Shown here: positions 59,419 to 62,776 of the stretch, one piece after another
Layout of the letters: the number at the start of each line of letters is the position of its first letter
Position numbering within the stretch: the first letter of the stretch is position 1
From: Arthrobacter oryzae
Lineage (GTDB): Bacteria; Actinomycetota; Actinomycetes; Actinomycetales; Micrococcaceae
DNA: 64,000 nt
Assembly (NCBI RefSeq): GCF_030812315.1
Contig: NZ_JAUSSM010000007.1
Span: 62,001-126,000, forward strand
Reading direction: 5' to 3'
The notes under the pieces: model-generated
Told to the model about the DNA's origin: nothing
What the model saw: only the letters and a program-made list of their open reading frames with translations
Databases searched by the model: none
Position numbers and translations under genes: made by a program

Positions 59419-60576
59419 TTATTGGGATGACCGGGTCCCTGCCCGCAACTGGAGGTAATCCGGGGCGGCGGCTGAACGGTGCACGCATCCGACGGATGTT
59501 CCGTAAGGGCCGCAGCCACCGAGGCGGCCGGGGGGTTCCAGCTCGGGTGTTGCAGTGTTCGGTGCTGCCGGCAGGACCATGAGCACGACGACCGCCGCCG
59601 ATGCGCCAATCGCTTTCAGTCCTTGGAAGAGCGTACGTGCAACGTCAGCAGAATCATTGATGGTCTCCGCAATGCTGCCCAAGGGGAAACGGGGCTGGGA
59701 TGACAGGACTTCGAGGATCCGGACAGCGGTGAGTGGCGAGAGCACCGCCGGCAGGAGGCCCGGATTCAGGAGTCCCCGCATCCTGGAACGGACATCACGC
59801 AAACCCTGGAGCGCCCCGCGGCAGTCCCGGCACGTGCGGAGGTGTCCGTCGACTTTGGCCTGGCTCGCCGCTGTGGTGCGGTCGAGAGCATATTCGGTCA
59901 ACATCCGCAGCATGGAGTCACAGCCGCGGCTTTCGGAGTCGCGCAGATATACCAGGAGGTAGGCCTGGCGAAGCCCTTTGCGAGCACGCCGGAGGAGGGC
60001 AGAGAGTGCGTTGGGGGCGATGTCGAGAAGCGGCGCGGCCTCGCGCGGCTTCAGTCCTTCAATCTCGACATACCAAAGAACTCTTTGCCAACGAAGGGGG
60101 AGGGTCGCGAAGGCCTCCGCGACGAAGTCGTGCTCCCGGGAGCTGCTGGGGAGCCCGTCTGTGTTCTGACCGTCAGCCAGCTCGGTGATTCGCCCTGACG
60201 GATGCTCTGCGGACGAATGGCGGTCGGATGCCGCAGTGCGGACAGCCCTCAGGAGATAAGGCCTGACCGGGCCGTCCGGCCCTTTTCCGCGTCGCATTGC
60301 AGTCAGGGACTTGAGGAAGGCCGTAGCGGCGAGGTCCTCTGCATCATGTGGAGATCTGCTCAGGGCGTTGGCATAAGCCAGGGCCGGTTCCCAGTGGGTT
60401 CTGAACAATTCCAGAACGGCCCCGGTCTTGCCTTCCCGGCAGTCCTGTACGAGCCTCGCTTCAGCTTCAGCTTCAGCGTCGGCGGCTCCCGTACCCGCCG
60501 ACGCGCCGTCCGGCGGGGATGCGGTGGCCTTCACAGTACTGCCCGGCACGCGGACGCGAGACGTGATTGACGGCAA
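59419..60576 (-). CDS. ECF sigma factor fused to a zinc-finger anti-sigma-like region
   Basis: A 385-aa protein. Sigma region 2 is at about 43-118 (LFRTHWEPALAYANALSRSP, DAEDLAATAFLKSL) and region 4 at about 152-208 (LPLRWQRVLWYVEIEGLKPR). These are followed by a zinc-binding HxxxCxxC (His 245, Cys 249, Cys 252) as in anti-sigma factors, a linker and one hydrophobic segment (321-338). A fused sigma plus membrane anti-sigma domain is unusual but known in actinobacteria. The start is TTG 60576; internal GTGs at 60549 and 60534 are alternatives. Confidence 0.82.
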   Translation of the reverse strand: MPSITSRVRVPGSTVKATASPPDGASAGTGAADAEAEAEARLVQDCREGKTGAVLELFRTHWEPALAYANALSRSPHDAEDLAATAFLKSLTAMRRGKGPDGPVRPYLLRAVRTAASDRHSSAEHPSGRITELADGQNTDGLPSSSREHDFVAEAFATLPLRWQRVLWYVEIEGLKPREAAPLLDIAPNALSALLRRARKGLRQAYLLVYLRDSESRGCDSMLRMLTEYALDRTTAASQAKVDGHLRTCRDCRGALQGLRDVRSRMRGLLNPGLLPAVLSPLTAVRILEVLSSQPRFPLGSIAETINDSADVARTLFQGLKAIGASAAVVVLMVLPAAPNTATPELEPPGRLGGCGPYGTSVGCVHRSAAAPDYLQLRAGTRSSQ

Positions 60577-60720: not shown

Positions 60721-60954
60721 CTACTCGCGGTGCTCGGCGCCCGAGGGGGCCTTGCTGTCCTCGCGGTCGATCGAAGCCAGCAACCGGTCCAGGGACCGCA
60801 ATACCCCGCCGGTGCACCGTAGGGTGAGAACTGGGTCGACCGGGCTTGATCCGGCACTGGTTGCGGCAAGATAGTCAGCCCACTCACGGTTCAGATTCTC
60901 GAACTCCCGCCGGCCCACCGACACGGTCAGCCGCCCATCAGGTCCTTCAGACAT
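60721..60954 (-). CDS. Hypothetical small protein
   Basis: A 77-aa soluble protein (MSEGPDGRLTVSVGRREFEN and beyond). No motif I know. It begins at ATG 60954 with a GGGGGTGA box seven bases upstream, so translation is credible. It sits between the sigma genes and the alpha-CTD-like gene, all on the minus strand, and may be cotranscribed with the latter. Confidence 0.6.
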   Translation of the reverse strand: MSEGPDGRLTVSVGRREFENLNREWADYLAATSAGSSPVDPVLTLRCTGGVLRSLDRLLASIDREDSKAPSGAEHRE

Positions 60955-61189: not shown

Positions 61190-61540
61190 TCACTGAACTC
61201 CGTCCGCCTCTTTCAGGACCGGCACGCCCGCCAACCATGCCTGGTGGTTCCGGGCATGCCGGCTGAGTGGACGCCTGTACCGCAACGCTCTGCCGGCAGC
61301 GGCGAGGCTTAAGTCTTCCCGCTTCAGGGCCTCCTCAATGTCCCTGATGCTGCCGATCCCGAGGCCGTGAAACTCGTTCCTCAGATCCTGCCGCGAGCGT
61401 GCAATCAGCTGTCCGATGGTGTTCACGCCGTGTCGGGCAAGGCCGTTTGCTGCCCGTGCAGGCAGGCGCAGTTCAGATATCGGACGTGCCTGCTGCAGCT
61501 CAACGGAACGCGTTGACAATGTCCTCTGGCCCTCCGGCAT
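61190..61540 (-). CDS. Free-standing RNA polymerase alpha C-terminal-domain-like protein
   Basis: A 116-aa protein. Residues 21-80 resemble the alpha-subunit C-terminal domain: ISELRLPARAANGLARHGVN then LGIGSIRDIEEALKREDLSL. Arg 29, Asn 32, Gly 61 and Ser 64 line up with E. coli alpha Arg 265, Asn 268, Gly 296 and Ser 299, which contact UP-element DNA. The N-terminal dimerisation domain of alpha is absent. A basic tail (84-100) follows. ATG 61540 has GGGAGGA upstream. Function unknown; DNA-binding modulation of transcription is inferred. Confidence 0.75.
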   Translation of the reverse strand: MPEGQRTLSTRSVELQQARPISELRLPARAANGLARHGVNTIGQLIARSRQDLRNEFHGLGIGSIRDIEEALKREDLSLAAAGRALRYRRPLSRHARNHQAWLAGVPVLKEADGVQ

Positions 61541-61790
61541 TACAAGAATCCTCCCGCAATAATCAGGGTCCCGCCGTGACGGCGGAATCACACGGAGTCT
61601 TAACCGTGCTGCCCGGGGTCCGTGACGGAGCACCTACGGGCCGGACCCCAAAGGCCCGAACTTGCCACCCACTGCAAACGCTTTCACAACAATTTTGGTT
61701 TCCGCGTCATGAAACAGGCTCGCCCGCGGTAAATGGTGTGAGGCGCTTGCGGTGCGTTCTCGCTTTTTCGCATCGAGGGCAGGCAACCAC

Positions 61791-62423
61791 ATGGAAACAA
61801 TTGATCACGTTTCACAGGGGGGCGGGCATCTGCGCCGTGCAGCATCCGAGGAGGCATCCGGCGGCGTCCAGGGCGATGAATCGGATTTGATTGCCGGCGT
61901 CCGGGCCGGGGACGCAGGGTCCATGGCGGTGCTGTACGAAAAGTATCGCGAGCCGGGGCTCCGGTTCATCCGGAGTCTAATGTCCGGCGCCCAGGAGTCC
62001 GAGGATGTGCTCCATGACGCTTTCGCGAAGGCTGTTGGCGCGATCAGGAACGGATACGGGCCCACGGAGGTGTTTGGCCCGTATCTGAGCACCGCAATCC
62101 GTTCCGTCGCAATGACGTTCTGGAACAAACGTGGTCGTGAGCAACCGGCACCCGACGAAGACCTGGATCCGGGACCTGTCGACGACCAGCGACTCGAGAC
62201 GGTCCTGACTGTGTTCGAGCAGGAACACGTCGCGGCCGCGATGCGTTCCCTGCCGGAGCGGTGGCGGATGGTGCTCTGGTACGCCGAGGTCATGGGCGAG
62301 AAGCCACGAAACATAGCGCCGATCCTGGGCCTGGAACCCAACGCGGTGTCCGCATTGCTAATCCGTGCCAAGGCTGGGCTGCGCGCCGCGTACGAGCAAC
62401 AGAGCGGATCGGAACTGAGTTAG
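61791..62423 (+). CDS. ECF-type RNA polymerase sigma factor
   Basis: A 210-aa sigma factor. Region 2 is at about 30-105 (VLYEKYREPGLRFIRSLMSG, ESEDVLHDAFAKAVGA) and region 4 at about 145-200 (RSLPERWRMVLWYAEVMGEK, APILGLEPNAVSALLIRAKA). It is clearly paralogous to the sigma part of the 59419-60576 protein, which also has the RVLWYVEIEGLKPR pattern. No anti-sigma gene is adjacent. ATG 61791 has a weak purine-rich box. Confidence 0.9.
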   Translation: METIDHVSQGGGHLRRAASEEASGGVQGDESDLIAGVRAGDAGSMAVLYEKYREPGLRFIRSLMSGAQESEDVLHDAFAKAVGAIRNGYGPTEVFGPYLSTAIRSVAMTFWNKRGREQPAPDEDLDPGPVDDQRLETVLTVFEQEHVAAAMRSLPERWRMVLWYAEVMGEKPRNIAPILGLEPNAVSALLIRAKAGLRAAYEQQSGSELS

Positions 62424-62478: not shown

Positions 62479-62667
62479 TCAGGCTGTGCCCGTGCGGTCC
62501 ACTATGCCCCCGGTGACTGCTGCTTCCCGCACGGCCCAGATCCCGGCAATGGCGACGTCCTCGTACGCGTAAGCCTCCGAGGTGAGCATCACCTCACCAT
62601 CGTCTGCGACCAGTCGGAACCTGAAGCAGTCTTCCGCGTCCATATACAGTTCGAACAAAGCGGCCAT
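62479..62667 (-). CDS. YegP/DUF1508 family small protein
   Basis: A 62-aa protein matching the DUF1508 pattern: FELYMDAEDCFRFRLVADDG, then EVMLTSEAY and a Gly-Ile-x-Ala-Val motif. These small proteins are widely conserved with no known function. ATG 62667 has AGGAG nine bases upstream. Confidence 0.8.
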   Translation of the reverse strand: MAALFELYMDAEDCFRFRLVADDGEVMLTSEAYAYEDVAIAGIWAVREAAVTGGIVDRTGTA

Positions 62668-62776
62668 GGGTCGTTCTCCTAACGTAATGCGAATCCTTCA
62701 CGACGCAGGGTCTTAACCGCATGGAGGGGTGATCGTGACGGCAGCAGCCGCCCCGGTGACCCTGTTTAAACCCAAG

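Follow-up and report, generated by a model that had tools for sequence, protein, structure and literature searches.

What would the DNA-reading domain of an RNA polymerase subunit do as a protein of its own next to ECF sigma factor genes? This domain, the alpha-CTD, belongs to the alpha subunit and is normally joined to the polymerase. In the window, which is the whole 64,000-nucleotide stretch of Arthrobacter oryzae DNA that was analysed, an earlier note had placed a stand-alone protein of this kind between two ECF sigma genes. The reading preferred here, to which a probability of about 40% is given, is that the detached alpha-CTD might be part of an ECF regulon and might bind DNA near the promoters of that regulon in trans. 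The features concerned are as follows.

59419 to 60534, minus strand: ECF sigma factor P0004 with a fused zf-HC2 anti-sigma-type domain (Pfam, TIGR02937)
60721 to 60954, minus strand: gene of a 77-amino acid protein, modelled as two helices
61190 to 61540, minus strand: stand-alone alpha-CTD protein P0001, ATG at 61540, 116 amino acids, domain at residues ~16-80
61600 to 61627, minus strand: promoter-like element before the alpha-CTD gene, with the form CGTCACG-N14-CGGTTAA, one of two exact copies in its own genome
61683 to 61701, plus strand: A+T-rich stretch (14 A or T among 19 bases) that directly precedes the P0003 element
61705 to 61733, plus strand: variant promoter-like element of P0003, CGTCATGA...CGGTAAA, with a spacer one base longer
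61791 to 62423, plus strand: ECF sigma factor P0003, 210 amino acids, without C-terminal extension (Sigma70_r2, TIGR02937)
62479 to 62667, minus strand: DUF1508 protein, 62 amino acids (PF07411, E 8.4e-11)
62713 to 62740, minus strand: promoter-like element before the DUF1508 gene, with the exact pattern CGTCACG-N14-CGGTTAA

The gene of P0001, with GGGAGG read a few bases 5' of its ATG, is under purifying selection. Among six orthologues (15 pairs) dN is 0.084 and dS is 0.265, and the resulting dN/dS of 0.315 (shifting the frame gives 1.13 and 2.19) rules out a chance ORF. In Pfam, RNA_pol_A_CTD (PF03118) matches P0001 with E 8.7e-12 and 45.0 bits versus a curated cut-off of 23.8, and it is the sole domain found at E ≤1; zf-HC2 or any other anti-sigma domain is absent from this search, as are sigma families from Pfam and NCBIfam at the same threshold. 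Of 57 PDB sequences matched at E ≤1, 49 are RpoA (best, 1.2e-5), and each of the remaining eight has an E above 0.2. The AlphaFold2 model, built from an alignment of 12 sequences of the genus, has block pLDDT values of 83-88 at residues 21-80 and below 60 from residue 81 onward. It contains the two helix-hairpin-helix units of the alpha-CTD fold; its top VIA-align 2 match is the alpha-CTD 1z3e_B (Z 12.4, 1.0 A over 67 residues), and all 50 Foldseek matches listed are RNA polymerase structures, which disposes of an unrelated helix-hairpin-helix protein, the outcome of structure prediction that would have spoken against the earlier proposal. By sequence and predicted fold, residues ~16-80 are thus a true alpha-CTD. 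As had also been claimed, the alpha N-terminal domain is absent from the frame, which comprises 147 codons at its longest from start to stop, and the NCBIfam RpoA models match over their last ~60-70 positions only (best, 37.8 bits versus a cut-off of 277). P0001 lacks the N-terminal dimerisation and assembly domain of RpoA. The PF03118 profile finds in the same genome one RpoA, P0001 and one weakly matching 72-amino acid helix-hairpin-helix protein (L003:1435-1650); the latter, at 17.8 bits, is below the cut-off and probably represents a different family.

In an alignment with the RpoA of the same genome, the four residues that had been named as kept are in place, namely R265 (R29 of P0001), N268 (N32), G296 (G61) and S299 (S64); changed are K298 (G63), C269 (G33), K271 (A35) and E302 (D67), and position 261, acidic (D) in RpoA, is R25 in P0001. 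The positions 261, 265, 268, 269, 271, 296, 298, 299 and 302 are given in E. coli alpha numbering, and their roles are taken to be those commonly assigned there. P0001 would accordingly be a putative binder of the A+T-rich minor groove, judged from the kept equivalents of 265, 268, 296 and 299, albeit with K298 lost. Since both K298 and the acidic residue 261 are lost, an RpoA-like contact with sigma region 4 is doubtful. The calculated pI is 11.4, compared with 5.0 for the CTD of RpoA. Behind the domain follows a basic tail, RHxxNHxAW, at residues 94-102, of which R94, N98, H99 and W102 are invariant in 12 aligned members (11 of 14 stand-alone loci of the genus plus strain Soil736). The conserved tail would suggest a specific contact. 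It was not seen in L044 (G022), L046 (G076) and L047 (G019); at L046:7219-7659 the stand-alone alpha-CTD is followed instead by a helix-turn-helix-like region with weak Pfam matches. In the five other tail-bearing stand-alone members compared, N268 and G296 are kept throughout; position 265 is M in L039, and position 299 is G in L042, T in L041 and M in L043. From residues and charge taken together, P0001 likely touches DNA.

Both flanking sigma genes match TIGR02937 (NCBIfam) above its cut-off of 42.9 bits, P0003 with 44.3 and P0004 with 47.2, and in both the Pfam region 2 match is above cut-off; region 4 stays below the cut-off of 25.7, with 22.6 bits (Sigma70_r4_2) for P0003 and 24.0 for P0004. 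On these profile matches, both are real ECF sigma genes. In P0004, a hydrophobic segment was read behind the zf-HC2 domain; for P0003, no neighbouring anti-sigma gene of the zinc-finger type was seen. The unit runs from P0004 through the 77-amino acid protein gene to P0001, and divergently from P0003 to the DUF1508 gene, so that the location of P0001 between two ECF sigma genes holds as far as both are real and flanking, with the qualification that the 77-amino acid protein gene separates it from P0004. For the 77-amino acid protein there was neither a Pfam match nor a PDB fold match of its model at E 0.001 or better. It belongs to a family of 73-87 amino acids with the core DPVxxLxxTGxVL, whose genes adjoin ECF genes in G051, G049, G062 and the window clade (members at 60721-60954, minus strand, and in L042, L062, L064 and L097); one of those in G051 overlaps the end of an ECF gene by 4 bases. 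The family is a candidate ECF-linked regulator.

Conservation of this neighbourhood, which had been put forward as a check, was found in part. All six close genomes retain the unit DUF1508 - P0003 - alpha-CTD - 77-amino acid protein - P0004, the five others having the same gene order and alpha-CTD proteins 82-90% identical; the 77-amino acid protein gene is interrupted in L038 (G082), and in L037 the unit sits between two genes, one glycoside-hydrolase-like and the other oxidoreductase-like by their sequence, which in the window stand together on one side. In the more distant relative G051 the cluster is enlarged and rearranged: the orthologue of P0003 (70% identity), the DUF1508 gene (57%) and the alpha-CTD gene (47%) lie on one strand, with the DUF1508 gene between the two others, and the cluster further holds ECF genes, relatives of the 77-amino acid protein gene, an adhesive protein of ice-binding-like type (PF20597) and proteins with DUF7507 repeats. 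Within G051:C8:74000-106000 (L042, L065, L066), several ECF genes, small helical proteins, the adhesive protein and DUF7507 proteins, the latter of up to 2,119 amino acids, were noted. With its common promoter-like elements, the G051 cluster is a candidate surface-protein regulon. Against general conservation stand eight of the 14 stand-alone loci of the genus (G043, G054, G009, G074, G022, G004, G076 and G019, that of G009 being cut by a contig end), where no homologues of P0003, P0004 or the 77-amino acid protein were found within ~7 kb on each side and no promoter-like element in the stretches examined. A sigma-like ORF followed by an anti-sigma-like ORF, both recognised by reading (L043, 13246-14501), lies ~5.6 kb from the alpha-CTD gene and was missed, so the homologue test can overlook sigma genes. 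Also against it, G049 and G062 carry P0003 orthologues (62-66%) together with one PF03118 match each, of RpoA strength in the 150-genome scan, and the stretches examined there contain nothing related to P0001; the ECF factor can thus do without the alpha-CTD. With the sigma neighbourhood present at only six of the 14 loci, the sigma link is a local recruitment.

How far such proteins are spread was followed by profile scans. In the genus, 147 of 150 genomes gave an alpha-CTD match at E 0.001, mostly RpoA, and at least 14 had a match outside RpoA scoring above RpoA itself (the eight named above and G000, G106, G148, G141, G082 and G051); this number is a lower bound, since G020, G097, G098, G101 and G130 have a second match each, which may be of the 72-amino acid kind. 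P0001-like proteins occur in the named relatives Arthrobacter sp. ISL-5, Soil736 and Y81. In the scans of the family (245 genomes, 32 genera) and the class (296 genomes), which scored 14-17 first-look candidates per genome, no stand-alone alpha-CTD outside the genus was recognised among the matches listed. Among those of the family scan, more than one match at E 1e-7 was found in the window's genome only, the other frames all having at least 333 codons; in the class scan the other frames listed have at least 237 codons, and second matches occurred in G398, G434, G437, G605 and G639, the one of G434, among the matches listed, having 280 codons. A second scan of 248 relatives at E 1e-8 yielded no new stand-alone member, with frames of RpoA length beside the known ones. 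Two contexts without sigma homologues were noted in passing. In G043 and G054 (L039:5785-7606, L040:6930-8722) genes for a LacI-type regulator (named from sequence), a monooxygenase-type protein and a stand-alone alpha-CTD stand in a row, the monooxygenase-type gene being of the antibiotic-biosynthesis type (PF03992, tested in L039) and alpha-CTD position 265 being the Met already mentioned; in G004 (L045:5611-7917) aminotransferase-like, alpha-CTD and hydrolase-like genes (names read from sequence) overlap on one strand. As sources of P0001, phages were rejected because none of 50,697 phage records matched at E 0.001, and plasmids because 72,556 plasmid records contained just two partial matches of less than 50% identity, one being annotated as RpoA. 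A PHROGs search at E ≤1 gave no match, and on viral contigs 0 of 14 pattern stretches were confirmed. An old transfer from phage or plasmid may still be compatible with these negatives.

This distribution leads to the best surviving alternative, according to which P0001 would be a general small DNA-binding transcription factor of the genus, recruited to varied operons and in no need of contact with sigma factor or polymerase. Eight stand-alone members in other contexts, and a tail kept across these contexts, are what such a factor would be expected to display. Retention of the unit with its common elements in the window clade, and partly in G051, argues to the contrary, and the alternative is considered somewhat unlikely.

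Within the preferred reading, that of a detached alpha-CTD in an ECF regulon, the strongest case is the one for co-regulation of the alpha-CTD gene with an ECF factor of the unit, as judged from the promoter-like elements. The element was first picked by eye from upstream stretches. The orthologues retain the elements of the unit, L036 (G148) having a mismatch in the one that precedes its alpha-CTD gene. By hand count, 12 of the 13 exact copies of CGTCAYG-N14-CGGTTRA in the six cluster genomes (two each in G000, G106, G148, G141 and G082, three in G051) lie inside the cluster, the sole copy outside being found in G148; G049 and G062 have two exact copies each, none at a stand-alone alpha-CTD gene. 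In a scan of four genomes, nine of nine exact copies were in the cluster and eleven one-mismatch copies were scattered, the total of 20 matches with one mismatch allowed showing no excess over the 22 of the reversed-pattern control. With two mismatches in the 64-kb window, 9 of 100 shuffles had as many matches. The wider pattern CGTCAYN{14,16}CGGTTRA gave 37 matches in eight genomes versus 9 for its reversed control, an earlier pattern, CGTCAYN{16,18}CGGTWRA, gave 30 versus 25 control matches, and the generic ECF pattern GGAA-N-GTC gave 50 matches in the window versus 36.8 expected, with 4 of 100 shuffles reaching as many, and was uninformative. The element stands out by exactness and placement only. 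A related, longer pattern, GTCATRAAAN{11,15}GGTRAA, had seven matches in eight genomes, all seven in the cluster, versus one control match; it occurs once upstream of P0003 in each of five window-clade genomes, twice in G051, at the P0003 orthologue and at the adhesive protein gene, and not at all in G049 and G062. The exact copies of G051 precede the alpha-CTD gene (~290 nt upstream of its start), another ECF gene and the gene of a 2,119-amino acid DUF7507/SdrD_B protein with a C-terminal hydrophobic anchor (by reading); of the three, only the copy at the ECF gene had been fully contained in the sequences used to derive the motif. The elements would most plausibly be promoters that are read by an ECF factor of the cluster. 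The A+T-rich stretch upstream of P0003, mostly kept in the six orthologues, with changes in L038, is the presumed place of DNA contact by the alpha-CTD. Two palindromes ahead of the alpha-CTD gene, at 61571-61585 and 61619-61629, share the core CCGTCACGG, the first lying in the likely leader.

Summarizing, the proposed pathway, with certainty falling from the driving of genes by the ECF factor to DNA binding by the alpha-CTD and finally to its action at ECF promoters, would be as follows. An ECF factor of the cluster, most likely P0003, would drive its own gene together with those of the alpha-CTD and the DUF1508 protein. P0001 would bind DNA by itself via R29, N32, G61 and S64 and the basic tail, and it would do so beside cluster ECF promoters, such as at the A+T-rich stretch of P0003. 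The occurrence of the same tail in other contexts suggests that its partner is DNA or core polymerase, present in every cell, and not P0003 alone. Through contact with polymerase, sigma factor or the CTD of RpoA, it would raise ECF-dependent transcription in a feed-forward loop; at these promoters it could equally act as a brake. A free alpha-CTD that displaces the RpoA CTDs from upstream DNA or from activator surfaces would lower housekeeping or ECF transcription as negative feedback, which would suit DNA-contact residues kept without a tether, the arginine at acidic position 261 and an ECF-type element before the gene; no sequence feature prefers brake over activator, the conserved tail hints at a specific contact, and a brake as the actual role is judged unlikely. 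Very improbable is an anti-sigma or co-sigma factor binding P0003 directly, a thought that arises because P0003 has neither a C-terminal extension nor an own zinc-finger anti-sigma gene seen beside it and has the alpha-CTD gene as divergent neighbour in six close genomes (on the same strand in G051, with the DUF1508 gene between), since P0001 contains no anti-sigma domain, orthologous ECF factors occur without alpha-CTD in G049 and G062 and the small two-helix protein encoded next to ECF genes is an equally good candidate. Carried to its end, the regulon reading would have an ECF factor switch on its own free alpha-CTD, which reads upstream DNA and redirects the polymerase to surface-protein genes and to the factor's own genes, upstream specificity being supplied in trans, so that detached alpha-CTDs would form a trans-acting class; in this full form it is a doubtful proposition.

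If true, a free alpha-CTD under sigma control would mean that a protein acting in trans can provide the recognition of upstream promoter DNA, and it would offer a small two-protein system for testing the cooperation of alpha-CTD and sigma region 4 with upstream DNA. As concrete candidate target promoters there are the elements described above, and the cluster of G051 suggests large surface proteins as targets of such a regulon.

Among known systems, the CTD of RpoA (PF03118) shares with P0001 the fold and most DNA-contact residues; P0001 differs in having no alpha N-terminal domain, in being basic instead of acidic, in one extra residue before the second hairpin, in its own conserved tail and in the non-acidic position 261. 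Alpha-CTD-like folds outside RpoA are also met in phages. Three structures of the BFVD matched at E 0.001 or better are proteins of uncultured Caudovirales annotated "RNA polymerase alpha subunit C-terminal", with weaker matches in Rhodococcus phage Finch (E 0.06) and Mycobacterium phage Mithril (E 0.23); these are 16-38% identical to P0001 and stand in a phage context. Because stand-alone alpha-CTD proteins are so annotated in phages, the kind is already known by name, and a stand-alone alpha-CTD as such is not unheard of. Among the matches listed from titles and abstracts of the open-access literature there was no paper on a stand-alone alpha-CTD; the nearest related work among them (PMC3294249) concerns two non-identical alpha subunits in Francisella. 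The architecture of P0004, with fused zinc-finger anti-sigma domain and membrane segment, resembles ECF48, ECF52 and ECF53 as described in extracts of PMC8999054, which also ascribe a carbohydrate-binding end to SCO4117 (ECF52); in P0004, no such end was found by Pfam. The closest parallel to a transcription domain detached in this way is the two-subunit sigma factor SigO-RsoA of Bacillus subtilis, in which a domain of the transcription machinery is likewise a separate protein; there, according to PMC8103513, it is sigma regions 4 and 2 that are split, whereas the separate part here is an alpha domain and not a sigma region. New in the present locus is that the alpha-CTD and DUF1508 genes share the exact element CGTCAYG-N14-CGGTTRA, a variant of which precedes one of the sigma genes.
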